36,429 nt of DNA from Verrucomicrobiia bacterium (GTDB taxonomy: Bacteria; Verrucomicrobiota; Verrucomicrobiia; Limisphaerales; DSYF01). The position numbers and the translations under genes are program-made. Under the pieces are notes generated by a model that worked only from the letters and a program-made list of their open reading frames with translations, did not search any database and was not told where the DNA came from. Every line of letters begins with the position of its first letter. Within the stretch, counting starts at the first letter, position 1. Positions 479-25,188 of this stretch are shown in pieces. The stretch spans positions 1 through 36,429 of the forward strand of contig DASTWL010000066.1 of the NCBI GenBank assembly GCA_035765895.1, read 5' to 3'.

Positions 479-512
479 TTGACACAAAGGCGGCGGGATT
501 TAGGTATGCGGC

Positions 513-584
513 ATGCCCCGCAACCTGCGAGTCGGATATCCGGGCGCGATTAACCATGTCATGAATCGCGGGCTCCCTTTGTGA
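513..584 (+). pseudogene. RAYT (Y1 / IS200-like) transposase, N-terminal remnant
   Basis: ATG at 513 opens a frame reading MPRNLRVGYPGAINHVMNRG, which is the typical N-terminus of REP-associated tyrosine transposases (usual form MPRxxRxxYPGAxYHVxxRG, where the His-containing strand starts the HUH fold). After the Gly codon ending at 572 the similarity stops, and a TGA follows at 582-584. The catalytic HUH and Tyr parts are absent, so the protein is dead. A normal family member has roughly 150-300 residues; only about 20 recognisable codons remain. The break right after a highly conserved block suggests a deletion or rearrangement rather than slow decay. Confidence 0.75.
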
Positions 585-654
585 AGTTTGGCGCCATTGG
601 CAAAACCAATGGCCGGCCAAGTTTATCAATTAACGGTCCGAACTGCCCGCCCGC

Positions 655-19976: not shown

Positions 19977-21197
19977 CTATGCGAGCAACTCACCCGCCTG
20001 CTTCATCAATTGCCCGATCGGCAGCCGGTTCGGGCAGGCGCGCTCGGCATTTGAGAAGTCGAGCGTCGCGATGCGATCGCGGGTCCCGACAGGCAGGCCG
20101 GCAAAGGTTTCCTTCGCCAGACGCATATCGCCGTAGGTGTGATGATACATCAGCGAGCGCATCACATCCGCCACCGGCACCCGTCGCCGGAGTGCGCCCT
20201 CGCACAAGTGTGCGCAGCCGTCGCAATAGTGGGAGCAGGTCGCGGCGGCGTATTCGCGCAGCGCGGAATGGTCAGCCGCCGTGAGCCGGGTCTTGTCCAG
20301 CGCGGCGGCGACGTTGGCCGTGAGGACGGTGATGTTGGGCATCTGCGAACAGATGGCGGCGACTTGCGGGTTTTCCCAAACCGCCTTGAGCCTGGCCTGG
20401 TGTTCGGAAAACCCGCGCTTCACGAAATGGCCGCCCAGCTTCAGGTCGGCGTCGGTTTCGGTTTTGATGGGGCCGCCGCCCTGGGTTTTCATGGCGGTCA
20501 GTCCGATGCCCGCCTTCTCGCAGGCATCCATCGCCGAGCGCATCGCGTCGGTTTGCATCAGCCGGTAATCGTATTTCAGCATGATGCCATCGATCCAGCC
20601 GAGCTTTGCCGCGGCTTCCAGCGTGCGTTCCATGTTCCCATGCGTGCTGAAGCCGAAGAATCGGATTTTCTTTTCCGCCTTCATCTTCTCCGCCCACGCT
20701 TTGATTTCGGGCGTGAAGGCATCGCCCGATCCGACACCGTGCAGGAAGAAGAGGTCCACGTAATCTGTCTTCAGCCGCCGGAGGGATTCTTCCAGTTTTC
20801 CCTGAACGTTCTCCACCGCGTGACCGCCGCCCGCCTTGGTGACGAGGAAGATTTTTCTGCGAACTTCGGGGTGCTTTTCGAAATACATCCCGATGCCTTT
20901 TTCGCTGTTGCCATTCGTGTAGGAATTGGCCGTATCCCAGTAGGTGACGCCAAAATCGAGCGCGCGTTGCAACACCAGCTGGTTGGAGGCAATGTCAAAA
21001 ATGCCTCCCAGTGAAAGCATGGAGACTTTCACCCCTGTTTTGCCGAAGGTGCGGGTGCCGACGGTGACGCGGCTTTCCTCGGCACCAGTTGCATTGGTGG
21101 TTTGGGCGAAGGTCCGGACGGCGCCAAGGGCCGAGGCGGCTCCGGCCAAGCCGGCGAGTTTTACGAAATTTCTGCGGGTAACGTGACTGTTTTGCAT
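19977..21197 (-). CDS. Tat-exported aldo/keto reductase with C-terminal Cys cluster
   Basis: The start is the ATG at 21197, which places a twin-arginine signal at the N-terminus (HVTRRNFVKLAGLAGAASALG, Arg8-Arg9). The frame is open further upstream but that part overlaps the preceding gene. The 406-residue product has the aldo/keto reductase tetrad: Asp88 and Tyr93 (YWDTANSY), Lys121 (VTKAGG) and His153 (FFLHGVG). After the barrel there are Cys321, Cys325, Cys328 and Cys332 in CSHYCDGCAHLC, and Cys388 in RACPNRLPI, a layout resembling the [4Fe-4S] tail of AKRs with a ferredoxin-like domain. It is the last gene of the minus-strand redox operon, 20 bases after the polyferredoxin. Export of a nicotinamide-type reductase is unusual; it may carry a bound cofactor or be fed through its cluster. 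Confidence 0.88.
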   Translation of the reverse strand: MQNSHVTRRNFVKLAGLAGAASALGAVRTFAQTTNATGAEESRVTVGTRTFGKTGVKVSMLSLGGIFDIASNQLVLQRALDFGVTYWDTANSYTNGNSEKGIGMYFEKHPEVRRKIFLVTKAGGGHAVENVQGKLEESLRRLKTDYVDLFFLHGVGSGDAFTPEIKAWAEKMKAEKKIRFFGFSTHGNMERTLEAAAKLGWIDGIMLKYDYRLMQTDAMRSAMDACEKAGIGLTAMKTQGGGPIKTETDADLKLGGHFVKRGFSEHQARLKAVWENPQVAAICSQMPNITVLTANVAAALDKTRLTAADHSALREYAAATCSHYCDGCAHLCEGALRRRVPVADVMRSLMYHHTYGDMRLAKETFAGLPVGTRDRIATLDFSNAERACPNRLPIGQLMKQAGELLA

Positions 21198-21217
21198 GGT
21201 GTTCTTGCCTTTCGTGT

Positions 21218-23152
21218 TCAGGTTCTGGCGGTCAAAGAGTGTCTGGGATTGCGGGATTCGTTCTCGGCGGTGACGCGGATCGCACGGAGACCACTGACGG
21301 GACATTCGTGCTGGCAGACGCCGCAGCCGATGCAGCGGTCCGGATCGACCATTGGTTTTTGCAACCGCACTTCGATCAACGCGCGCCGGCCGGCCTCCGG
21401 CGCTTCCGGCCAGGCGGAGTTCCCGGCCACGGTGATCGCATTCGCCGAGTTCTCCGTGATCAACCTGCGCTCCGCGGGCGTCTCATTTTCCAGGCGGATG
21501 AAATAGTCTCCCGTGGCCAGTTTGCCGTTGCGCAACGCGGCACCGTCGAGTTGAAGGTTGGTCGTCGTGGCCGAGCGAATGATCCGGGCGCCATTTTCGA
21601 TGACTTGAAATTCCTCACGGACGTAAATCGCCTTCGGGCTCACGGGGCAATTCTCCTGACAAACAATGCAGGGCATGTCCATGGCCCAAGGCAGGCAGCG
21701 GCTGCGATCCACGAAGGCCGTGCCCATGCGAACCGGCCCCGCCGTCGCGAAATCGCCGGCGCCGTGCTTTTCATCCAGCGTCAGCGGACGAATGGCAGCG
21801 GTCGGGCAAACATTTCCGCACGCGATGCAGTTGAGCTGGCAACCACTCGTGCCAATCCGAAAATTTAGGACTGGCGTCCACAGTCCGCCGAGTCCCGCTT
21901 CCAGCAGTGCGGGTTGAATCACATTCGTCGGGCACACGCGCATGCACTGGCCGCACTTGATGCAGCGATTCAGGAAATCTTCCTCCGCGAGCGCACCGGG
22001 CGGGCGGACGACATTGGAGTTCCAGTTGTGATCCAGAAATCCGCCCAGCCGTGCCGCCGGAACCGCCACCACGCCGGAGACGCCGGCGGCCAGAAAGCCG
22101 CGTCGCGTCACGCCCGTCGCCTCGTCCTCACCGGATGCCGAACGGTTCAGGCTGTAACCCATCTTCGCTTTCCGGCATGCGTGCAGGCAGTTCATGCACA
22201 GCAGGCACTCGCTCGTATGAATCGTGCCGAACGGGTCGCACGCGCCCTCGCAATTGTTCTCGCACAGTTCGCAACCGCTGCACTCGCCCACGCGCTTGCC
22301 GATGCGCCAGGGCGTCCACCGCACCAGCACCCCGAACAACGCACCCAACGGACAGATAAACCGGCAATAGAATCGCGGTATCCACAGGTTCAACAGCACG
22401 GCGGCAAGAAACACCAAAGTGATCGTCCATGCGGCGACGTAGAAGCGGTTTGCCGCCCCGATGCCATCAAACACGGTGAGCACCACCAGATTGAACGAGC
22501 GGTAAACCAAGGGAATCGGGTCGAGCAATCCGGTTTGCAACGAAGCCGCGGCCAGCGCGTCGGGCTGGGCAATAAGTCCGATTCCGATCCACACCGCGAC
22601 GATGGTTGAAAACCAAAGCACCGCTGACTTGAAACGACCGGCGAGCTTGCGCGTCGTCAGCCAGGTGAGAATCAACAAACCCCCGATGGCCAGCAATGAA
22701 GCCACGGCCGGCTTCCGATGCGGCAATCGGAGGGCCTCGCTGATTAATCCGCCTGCCGCCGCGCTGAGCAAAGCAATGAGCACGTAATACTTGATGACCT
22801 GAGACTGACGAAACTGGTTCATCGCCACCCGCTCGGCATGTTTCTTCCAACGGCGACCCAGCCAGCCGATGAACTGATGCAACGCGCCGAAGGGACAAAG
22901 CCAGCCGCAGAAGAAGCGTCCGAACACGACCGTCAAGGCGACGGTTGCCACGCCCCAGAGCAATCCGGCGTAAACCGTTTTCGTGGTGAGCAACGTCCCG
23001 AGCGCGACCAGCGGGTCGAGTTGCAGGAACCAGTTCACCGGCCAGCCACGCCATTGCCACCAGCGCTCGCCGACGGTGGTGACCACGCAGAACCAGACGA
23101 AGAGCAGGAAGAAAAATACCTGCGCGATGCGGCGGGCTTTGATGATGTTCAT
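21218..23152 (-). CDS. Membrane polyferredoxin, NapH-NapG-like fusion
   Basis: The ATG at 23152 has a strong ribosome-binding site (GGAGG, 7-base spacing); a GTG one codon earlier is less likely. The 644-residue protein first has several membrane helices with two NapH/NosR/CcoG-type motifs, CGWLCPFGALH (82-92) and CRFICPLGALF (263-273). Two ferredoxin-like Cys groups follow (291-326, CSGCELCENNC and CLLCMNCLHAC). An internal twin-arginine segment, TRRGFLAAGVSGVVAV (349-364), leads into a NapG-like part with four Cys groups (397-407, 438-449, 486-502 and 607-617). It looks like the quinol-oxidising membrane subunit NapH joined to the periplasmic ferredoxin NapG. It should move electrons between the quinone pool and a periplasmic partner, likely the neighbouring exported proteins. 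No nap reductase gene is present in the window. Confidence 0.88.
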   Translation of the reverse strand: MNIIKARRIAQVFFFLLFVWFCVVTTVGERWWQWRGWPVNWFLQLDPLVALGTLLTTKTVYAGLLWGVATVALTVVFGRFFCGWLCPFGALHQFIGWLGRRWKKHAERVAMNQFRQSQVIKYYVLIALLSAAAGGLISEALRLPHRKPAVASLLAIGGLLILTWLTTRKLAGRFKSAVLWFSTIVAVWIGIGLIAQPDALAAASLQTGLLDPIPLVYRSFNLVVLTVFDGIGAANRFYVAAWTITLVFLAAVLLNLWIPRFYCRFICPLGALFGVLVRWTPWRIGKRVGECSGCELCENNCEGACDPFGTIHTSECLLCMNCLHACRKAKMGYSLNRSASGEDEATGVTRRGFLAAGVSGVVAVPAARLGGFLDHNWNSNVVRPPGALAEEDFLNRCIKCGQCMRVCPTNVIQPALLEAGLGGLWTPVLNFRIGTSGCQLNCIACGNVCPTAAIRPLTLDEKHGAGDFATAGPVRMGTAFVDRSRCLPWAMDMPCIVCQENCPVSPKAIYVREEFQVIENGARIIRSATTTNLQLDGAALRNGKLATGDYFIRLENETPAERRLITENSANAITVAGNSAWPEAPEAGRRALIEVRLQKPMVDPDRCIGCGVCQHECPVSGLRAIRVTAENESRNPRHSLTART

Positions 23153-23159
23153 CACGGCG

Positions 23160-23164
23160 CCTCC
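23160..23164 (-). promoter_or_regulatory. Strong Shine-Dalgarno site (GGAGG) of the polyferredoxin gene
   Basis: On the minus strand GGAGG is followed by 7 bases and the ATG at 23152. It is one of the few canonical ribosome-binding sites in this window and decides for ATG 23152 over the GTG at 23155. It sits inside the operon, consistent with translation of an internal cistron. Confidence 0.6.
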
Positions 23165-23203
23165 GTTTCAGTGGGCGAATTCGATTGCCCGCTCTTCAAA
23201 GCT

Positions 23204-24196
23204 TCAGCCCACATGGTCCCTCGCTGGTTTGAGTGATTCGTAATCGATCGTGCCGACGCCCGCGGCAGCGGCCTTCCCGATGAACGTCAGGTCGGCCGCA
23301 GTTTTACCAAGCAGGGTGGCGCCGAACGCGTCGGCGGCCACCTGGTCGGTGCTGACGATCATTGTGTTCGTAGGCTGCAAATCCTCCAGCGACCCGCCCG
23401 TGGGCCCGTTCGTGAGCATGCTCGTGGTGCCGTCAAGGATCACCATCGTGGGCCGCACCATGGTGGCGAGTTCGGAAATGATCGTGTGGATGTCCTGATG
23501 AAACACGTTGCGACGTCCGCCCAGCAGACCATACCAGTTCTTCATGGACATGGACGCGCCGCTGCGATGGTGATCTTTCACCGGCGAAATTCCGATCAGC
23601 TTGGTCGCGCGCTGGAACGGTTCGATGAACAATGGCCAGTCGCGAATGAGCCGGGCGTTGGGGAGCGTGGTGGGTTTGAACGACGCGGCCCCGGGCAAAA
23701 TCACTTTGGCCCCGGCAGCTTCAGCGGCCTTCGCGATGCCGCTCAAGGTGAAGCAGCTTTGCGGATCGTTGATCGGATTATCCGCGACGACCACGGATGA
23801 TGCTCCGGCGGCAAAGCACAATCGCGCCACTTCCGCGACGAGTTTGGGATTGGCCGTGGCGGAGAGGGCAGCGGGCGATGCGAAGGCGGCGTTCACCTTG
23901 AGCACCACGCGGTCGCCGGATTGGATGAACTGCTCGATGCCGCCCAACGCCTGCAAGGCCCGGTTGATGGTCTTCACGCGATCGGAGCCGGTGATGATGC
24001 TCATGCGCTGGCCGAGTTTCGGCAGCGAATAGTCCGGCAACGAAACGGTCTCAGCGGCGGGTTTGCCCGTCGGCCCCTGCGTGTCATGCAGCCAATATCC
24101 CACGCCGCCCGTGGCCGCGACAATGGCTCCGGCCTTCGCCGCGCGCGTCAGGAAATCGCGGCGTCGGACCGGTGGGTTGCTGTGGTTTGGGTTCAT
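23204..24196 (-). CDS. Tat-exported DUF362 family protein
   Basis: The 330-residue protein opens with a twin-arginine signal (VRRRDFLTRAAKAGAIVAATGG, Arg11-Arg13). The remainder matches DUF362: GDRVVLKVNAAFA, ADNPINDPQSCF, the SPVKDHHRSGASMSMKNWYG block, RPTMVILDGTTSM, and DQVAADAFGATLLG close to the C-terminus. DUF362 proteins are often found with ferredoxin domains or in iron-sulfur enzyme operons; their reaction is not established. This copy has no ferredoxin Cys motif of its own, which fits with clusters being supplied by the polyferredoxin encoded 48 bases downstream. The start codon overlaps the stop of the DUF6599 gene by 4 bases (ATGA), so translation is coupled. Confidence 0.88.
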   Translation of the reverse strand: MNPNHSNPPVRRRDFLTRAAKAGAIVAATGGVGYWLHDTQGPTGKPAAETVSLPDYSLPKLGQRMSIITGSDRVKTINRALQALGGIEQFIQSGDRVVLKVNAAFASPAALSATANPKLVAEVARLCFAAGASSVVVADNPINDPQSCFTLSGIAKAAEAAGAKVILPGAASFKPTTLPNARLIRDWPLFIEPFQRATKLIGISPVKDHHRSGASMSMKNWYGLLGGRRNVFHQDIHTIISELATMVRPTMVILDGTTSMLTNGPTGGSLEDLQPTNTMIVSTDQVAADAFGATLLGKTAADLTFIGKAAAAGVGTIDYESLKPARDHVG

Positions 24197-25188
24197 TTGT
24201 TTGCGGCCGTCAGTCGTTGAAGCAAGTCGTTGCCGATTTTCTCCGCGGCGGATGACGTCGGCGCAGCATGGATGCCTGCAACGTAGCGGCCCCGGGAAAA
24301 CACGAGTTCAAGGCTGCCCATGAGTTCAACCGGCCTGCCGAGTTCGCCGATGGCCGTCCCGGCCTCCTTGCCGCCGTTCTCGACCAGGAAGGCGCGGTAA
24401 GCGTCACGTAAAGCGGTCGCCGCTTCTGGTGTTGCACAGGCGGTGACGAACGCCATCAGCTCGGTGCCGTCCGGATTGTATTGCGCCGTGAACACATTCT
24501 TGAATCGATCGAATCCGAACGCGTCGGAGGCCTGGAGTTCGACACTGCCGGCGACGCGGCAATCGGTGGGCAGAATTATCATTTCGGGCATCTGTTCCAC
24601 GCTGCGGACGGAAGTCGCGGCCACGAAGCGCTTGGCCATGGAGAGCATGGCAGTGCGGAGCGGTTCGCTGGTGGAGGAACCGACGGCTTCGATGTAGTTG
24701 GTGCCTGCGACGAAGAAGATGGCGTTCTGGGTTCGATAGGCGTAGGGCGTGAGGTCCAGTGTCTCGCCTTCCGCGCGGCGTTGCGTGGAGAAAACTGAAA
24801 ACGCCTGGGGCACGCCGTTCATGCCGTAGGCAAACCATTCAAACCAATCGTTGGAGGCGTTCTTCAACGCAAACCGCCGGCAATCCATCCGGGCCACGCC
24901 GGTGGAGACATACAACTCGGCTTTGCCGTCGATTTTGTCGTAGAGATTCTCCGGCGTGAACTGCTCTGGCGCGCCAAACGCCTGCAATTCCGGGGGCAGC
25001 CAGGCGGAGTCGATGGCGGACCGGGATGGTGCGGCCGGAGCGGCGGCCAGTTGTCGGGCCATGAGCACCGCGGGGTTGAAGGAGAATTGTTTCAGGAAAA
25101 CGCCGCCGCCGATGGCCAGCAGACAAAACAGGATGAACCAACTCAACACCTGCTCGGTCTTGCGATCATTTGTGTCTGGAGACGGCAT
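24193..25188 (-). CDS. DUF6599 family membrane-anchored protein
   Basis: The 331-residue product starts with a short cytoplasmic stretch and one membrane helix (about residues 14-31, LSWFILFCLLAIGGGVFL), leaving the rest in the periplasm. The segments PENLYDKIDGKAELYVSTG and DWFEWFAYGMNGVPQAFSVFSTQRRAEG are recognised as DUF6599-type. No catalytic residues are known. It is the first gene of a four-gene minus-strand operon with DUF362, the polyferredoxin and the aldo/keto reductase. The 197 bases upstream hold no gene and should contain the operon promoter, but I see no convincing -35/-10 pair there. Confidence 0.75.
   Translation of the reverse strand: MPSPDTNDRKTEQVLSWFILFCLLAIGGGVFLKQFSFNPAVLMARQLAAAPAAPSRSAIDSAWLPPELQAFGAPEQFTPENLYDKIDGKAELYVSTGVARMDCRRFALKNASNDWFEWFAYGMNGVPQAFSVFSTQRRAEGETLDLTPYAYRTQNAIFFVAGTNYIEAVGSSTSEPLRTAMLSMAKRFVAATSVRSVEQMPEMIILPTDCRVAGSVELQASDAFGFDRFKNVFTAQYNPDGTELMAFVTACATPEAATALRDAYRAFLVENGGKEAGTAIGELGRPVELMGSLELVFSRGRYVAGIHAAPTSSAAEKIGNDLLQRLTAANK

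Follow-up and report, generated by a model that had tools for sequence, protein, structure and literature searches.

The window, by which we mean the whole stretch of 36,429 nucleotides under analysis, encodes a polytopic polyferredoxin (Table 1) in which a NapH-like membrane half and a NapG-like ferredoxin half form a single chain. The best explanation of the evidence as a whole, and one in which we place considerable confidence, is that this protein is a PFD-type NapH-NapG fusion, assembled by Sec and then by Tat, that probably exchanges electrons with an extracytoplasmic partner. A dual Sec/Tat mechanism is already published for a protein with this architecture, so the idea is not new; less familiar than the dual-pathway assembly itself are the conserved genes for exported partners that surround the polyferredoxin.

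Table 1. Features of the polyferredoxin and its gene cassette in the window
Feature	Position	Strand	Remarks
Polytopic polyferredoxin ORF	21218..23152	-	644 aa, ATG at 23152
NapH-like half, residues 1-335; NapG-like half, residues 350-620	within 21218..23152	-	
NapG-like half, predicted extracytoplasmic, containing the strand-rich insert and four Cys4 groups (C397-C617)	21293..21964	-	
R350-R351 codons, internal twin-arginine pair	22100..22105	-	coordinates from sequence
Predicted Tat-dependent helix, residues 352-373	22034..22099	-	R368 near C-terminal end
Two extra predicted helices, insert of about 60 residues	residues about 146-200 (22553-22717); helices about 150-197 (22562..22705)	-	
Strand-rich insert (about 100 residues) separating Cys4 groups three and four in the NapG half	residues about 509-602		block pLDDT 66-90 (AlphaFold2)
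DUF6599 protein, N-terminal hydrophobic stretch, first cassette gene	24193..25188	-	4-base overlap with DUF362
DUF362 protein, N-terminal Tat motif RRRDFL, upstream of polyferredoxin	23204..24196	-	
Aldo/keto reductase (AKR), N-terminal Tat motif, downstream of polyferredoxin	19977..21197	-	start taken at MQNSHVTRRNF

A GTG at 23155 lies one codon 5' of the polyferredoxin ATG. NCBIfam NapH models cover residues 6-133 and 220-333, and NapG covers residues 346-512, all with scores far below the curated cut-offs (TIGR02163, 72.8 against 213, and NF007013, 61.5 against 234, for NapH; the NapG equivalog NF007012, 79 bits against 269); both NapH and NapG models match all 51 aligned members. Pfam assigns Fer4_5 to the first half, with its best stretch at 60-104, and Fer4-type domains to the second. 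When compared as pairs of sequences, NapG of E. coli K-12 (MG1655) aligns to residues 349-514 with 34% identity (E 1e-17), with LRPPGAINENAF standing against VRPPGALAEEDF in the alignment of NapG and polyferredoxin, and E. coli NapH matches residues 46-139 and, less strongly, residues 246-357. Models and alignments thus bear out the sequence-only reading, which had proposed a NapH-like membrane half and a NapG-like ferredoxin half within one protein.

The alignment to NapH and NapG, run to locate the fusion, has NapG homology beginning at the signal region. Although the RR residues of NapG and of the polyferredoxin are unpaired in the BLAST alignment, a manual count on the sequences puts R351 at 32 residues from RPPG here, and the equivalent distance at about 33-34 in NapG. 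Since these distances are nearly equal, the fusion joint most likely lies in the linker at residues 335-348, directly ahead of the NapG signal. Together with the conservation of R351/RR, the retention of the RPPG landmark of NapG suggests that the internal signal is the Tat signal of NapG itself, fused behind NapH. Each half of the polyferredoxin is homologous to an E. coli counterpart, but these are two separate proteins in E. coli, E. coli NapG is without the strand-rich insert, and the cassette described below is without napA or napB.

Ahead of the twin arginine, the polyferredoxin has two CX3CP motifs (C82/C86 and C263/C267) and the groups C291-C294-C297-C301(-C305) and C316-C319-C322-C326; behind it are four Cys4 groups (C397-400-403-407, C438-442-445-449, C486-495-498-502 and C607-610-613-617). 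Leaving out C22 in helix 1, this amounts to 13 motif cysteines before the pair and 16 after it, each conserved with at most one exception among the 84-85 sequences that have a residue at that position in our 85-sequence alignment. The pattern fits seven [4Fe-4S] sites, three before the twin arginine and four after.

The twin arginine itself lies in TRRGFLAAGVSGVVAV (residues 349-364; motif T349-R350-R351-G-F-L), and inspection of the ORF confirms the earlier claim that it occupies the middle of the protein, after the NapH-side cysteine groups and before four more. Its conservation was tested on 85 sequences, comprising the window protein, 80 named loci (the best 80 of 136 relatives from a scan of genome contigs) and four full-length proteins from the same phylum (L003-L006). 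R351 is present in 85/85 and position 350 is R in 75/85 and K in 10/85 (L044, L062, L064-L066, L070, L073, L097, L102 and L106), though many of these sequences are close kin (Desulfobacterales), so that the counts are not independent. The closest named relatives among the best 80 of 136 are Limisphaerales MAGs, with 71-72% identity, so the window itself probably stems from this group. RPP at 383-385 is likewise kept in all 85 sequences and P365 in 82, position 368 holds an R in 80 sequences, H in three and K in two, and many linker columns near RR and RPP vary freely. An internal RR with a hydrophobic stretch, 43-52 residues ahead of a Cys4 group, was also found in 25 of 25 distant relatives (L007-L031, 25-41% identity); this pattern, which required RR plus hydrophobic stretch and Cys4 spacing together, was run on all 25 lower-scoring ORFs among the remaining phylum hits retained as loci. 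RR followed by a hydrophobic stretch and a long uncharged run arises in 138 of 20,000 shuffles of the polyferredoxin. The pattern is thus uncommon by composition, and its conservation is the stronger argument; we dropped a chance occurrence of RR on the grounds of this conservation. The spacing from C326 to R350 is at least 22 residues in all 85 sequences, exceeding the minimum loop of about eight residues given by Tooke et al. 2017 (PMC5449189). In three Desulfamplus relatives (L103, L107 and L109) the linker between the last NapH-side cysteine and RR is longer.

We estimated membrane insertion with approximate parameters of the Hessa/von Heijne predictor (a 4L/15A test segment gives -0.5). 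Minima of dG before RR fall at about residues 17, 75, 132, 160, 186 and 247; two further minima, at 226 (1.98) and at 271 (-0.63, in the second CX3CP region), were not counted as helices. Helix prediction thus gives seven transmembrane segments, six of Sec type and the helix after RR, with two of these missing from 28 short relatives. The two extra helices belong to an insert that is found in 57/85 sequences and missing from 28/85. As they are gained or lost as a pair, RR remains on the same side, and since the Sec-type helices are predicted in even number, with six here and four in short relatives, it would lie on the cytoplasmic side, an argument from parity that depends on the marginal third helix at about residue 132 (dG 0.08). 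Basic residues favour the loops assigned to the cytoplasm with one exception, loop 138-149; this loop, before the first extra helix, has three basic residues despite its outside placement. The helix after RR has a predicted dG of about +1.1 to +1.35 kcal/mol (about +1.35 for residues 351-373); with these approximate parameters its value is above zero in 85/85 sequences (median 1.41), whereas values below zero are obtained for helix 1 in 80/83, two cut sequences having been left out. In all 85 sequences the post-RR helix ends in R, K or H. The earlier reading named two outcomes that would refute it, an RR segment that varies among relatives and a C-terminal half predicted to remain in the cytoplasm. 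Neither was observed: the RR segment is conserved, parity predicts a cytoplasmic RR, and the next helix appears to be a poor Sec substrate with R/K/H near its C-terminal end.

Iron-sulfur proteins usually fold before their export to the periplasm. This, together with the conservation of both the low hydrophobicity and the basic residue, each of which lowers Sec insertion, makes it very improbable that in the native host Sec inserts the weak helix and RR is a remnant, even though Sec can insert marginal helices in some contexts. In PMC5449189, a short Sco3746 fusion underwent some Sec insertion.

Structure prediction adds little. An AlphaFold2 model built from 51 sequences is of low quality (mean pLDDT 65.7; values under 50 over a large part of the NapG half) and provides no independent topology; it has the RR helix at 350-369, with block means of 85 (351-360) and 65 (361-370). 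Foldseek found nothing in the PDB at a threshold of E 0.001, and phmmer found no match to the polyferredoxin among PDB sequences at 1e-5; both results are uninformative, and neither is evidence of a new fold.

The architecture closely resembles that of polytopic polyferredoxins found in a TATFIND/TMHMM screen by Tooke et al. 2017 (PMC5449189), where the polyferredoxin PFD of the delta proteobacterium MLMS-1 (Q1NSB0) is described as NapH fused to NapG, with seven clusters in all, and relatives are named in Chloroflexi, Nitrospirae and Euryarchaeota. MBP or AmiA placed behind the membrane part of MLMS-1 PFD was exported in E. coli only with functional Tat and an intact RR; export was lost with RR-to-KK and in a tat mutant, and the chain was located in the membrane even without Tat. 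According to the same source, the last helix escapes Sec through its low hydrophobicity and the positive charges that follow it, and dG for this helix ranges from +0.30 to +1.72 in seven PFDs. In Q1NSB0, three [4Fe-4S] groups are cytoplasmic and four extracytoplasmic, and RR stands immediately ahead of a weakly hydrophobic last helix with positive charge behind it. Like that protein, the window protein combines NapH and NapG in one chain, has 3 + 4 cysteine sites and RR before the last transmembrane segment, and, with the approximate parameters used here, a positive predicted dG for that segment with basic residues behind it. It differs in its six predicted Sec helices, against four in MLMS-1 PFD, for which five transmembrane segments were called in all and prediction of the second to fourth was termed difficult. 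By its sequence features we class the window protein as a further PFD member with two extra predicted helices, a kinship judged from the described features of MLMS-1 PFD. The actinobacterial Rieske protein Sco2149 and the heme-Moco protein Sco3746 share the Sec-then-Tat logic and the RR before the last helix, but have unrelated cofactor domains and helix numbers (PMC5449189).

By analogy with MLMS-1 PFD, the window protein very probably needs both Sec and Tat for its assembly, and the use of Tat is well supported by this published case of the same architecture; the suggestion that the second half is exported by Tat while still tethered, as a dual-pathway membrane protein, is upheld to the same extent, by extension from the MLMS-1 protein. 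The genome of the window has the means to do so, TatC and TatA-type genes lying close together on contig C43. We picture a NapH-type, quinol-side membrane part with cytoplasmic [4Fe-4S] groups joined to a four-cluster NapG-type ferredoxin via the Tat signal of NapG. Sec would insert six helices (four in the shorter relatives), but would not retain the weakly hydrophobic seventh with the basic residue behind it, so that the NapG half could fold with its clusters in the cytoplasm and be handed to Tat by RR. Tat would then move the folded NapG half out, leaving it tethered.

Conceivably the chain is instead a polyprotein, its NapG half being exported by Tat and then released by signal peptidase as a free NapG-like ferredoxin. 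The window protein does carry VPAARLGG behind the helix, and Ala-X-Ala occurs within residues 360-376 in 22/85 sequences. It is missing from that stretch in the other 63/85, however, while P365 (82/85), R/K/H368 and RPP383-385 (both 85/85) are kept, and for the release of AmiA a cleavage site had to be introduced (Tooke et al. 2017, PMC5449189). We consider such processing improbable, and prefer a NapG half that stays attached.

The polyferredoxin belongs to a conserved four-gene cassette, DUF6599-DUF362-polyferredoxin-AKR (window 19977-25188, all on the minus strand), that recurs across Desulfobacterota, Planctomycetota, Verrucomicrobiota and further groups. In the set of 80 named loci (the best 80 of 136), with flanks that were too short dropped from each count, DUF362 lies at most 1.2 kb upstream of the polyferredoxin in 61/72, DUF6599 at most 2.6 kb upstream in 56/64 and AKR at most 1.3 kb downstream in 54/71. 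Clustering of ORFs of at least 150 aa from the named loci yielded no fifth gene of like frequency, the next cluster occurring in 15 loci; frequent opposite-strand clusters overlapping the cassette genes were taken as shadow ORFs. At a threshold of 1e-50 or better, the polyferredoxin has matches in seven of 387 genomes of the phylum (G000, G056, G087, G151, G177, G306 and G374). DUF362 has matches at 1e-50 in the same seven, and AKR in five of them and nowhere else among the 387. Within the window's own phylum, polyferredoxin and DUF362 are thus strictly linked, in seven genomes. The two genomes with no AKR match at 1e-50, G087 and G306, carry short polyferredoxins (about 490 residues). At the loci L007 and L008, DUF362 lies upstream of a polyferredoxin ORF of about 490 residues, and their genomes have no AKR match at 1e-50. 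In nine planctomycetal loci (L075, L077, L084, L085, L087, L088, L090, L094 and L110) tatC is no more than about 5.5 kb away from the polyferredoxin; L075:2727-3539 (-) is TatC by Pfam, and the other eight were recognised by BLAST to that ORF.

With identical handling of aligned sequences, window included, an N-terminal RRx[FLIVM] was found in 68/68 DUF362 proteins, 62/64 AKRs and 2/63 DUF6599 proteins. Tat motifs on both DUF362 and AKR also bear on whether the C-terminal half of the polyferredoxin leaves the cytoplasm at all. If the RR stretch were simply a buried or surface helix, the entire C-terminal half would be a cytoplasmic polyferredoxin; the helix is indeed only weakly hydrophobic (dG about +1.35), and translocation is here a prediction from sequence. 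Strict conservation of RR/KR, NapG homology that begins at the signal region, the Tat motifs on DUF362 and AKR and the dependence on Tat published for MLMS-1 PFD (PMC5449189) all argue against this, and we judge retention in the cytoplasm to be still less probable than processing of a polyprotein. On the evidence set against each, we dropped cytoplasmic retention, the polyprotein and insertion by Sec alone in favour of Tat export of a tethered NapG half.

What might the polyferredoxin do once assembled? Its likely task would be to link the quinone pool or the cytoplasmic face, by electron transfer, with a partner outside the cytoplasm, the AKR and/or the DUF362 protein being the likeliest candidates; partner and direction of flow are what we infer. 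In the aligned AKRs, C325, C328, C332 and C388 are kept at 90% or more, and this C-terminal set is a possible [4Fe-4S] site; D88, Y93, K121 and H153, which we take to be the D-Y-K-H tetrad, are also kept. DUF362 and the lactate-racemase family DUF2088 share a Pfam clan, CL0471. Among open-licence full texts we found no paper on DUF6599, none that treats DUF362, aldo-keto reductase and ferredoxin together, and no description of the cassette. For its function we infer, tentatively and with more doubt than confidence, an undescribed extracytoplasmic redox module, in which electrons would cross the membrane through the fused NapH-NapG to reach an AKR that is exported by Tat and has its own [4Fe-4S] site, and DUF362 would act on the same substrate or cofactor.

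These observations enlarge a small class of membrane proteins, whose assembly is attributed to Sec and Tat jointly, by many bacterial members from Verrucomicrobiota, Planctomycetota, Desulfobacterota and other groups. The distribution of the two-helix insert suggests that helices may be added pairwise before the Tat step without moving RR to the other side, and the ten KR relatives constitute a natural test of KR signals within a polytopic protein. Since the cassette supplies candidate partners for the polyferredoxin, its function becomes testable. If the module is as we propose, an enzyme fold that is normally NAD(P)H-dependent would operate extracytoplasmically, using electrons supplied by the quinone pool.
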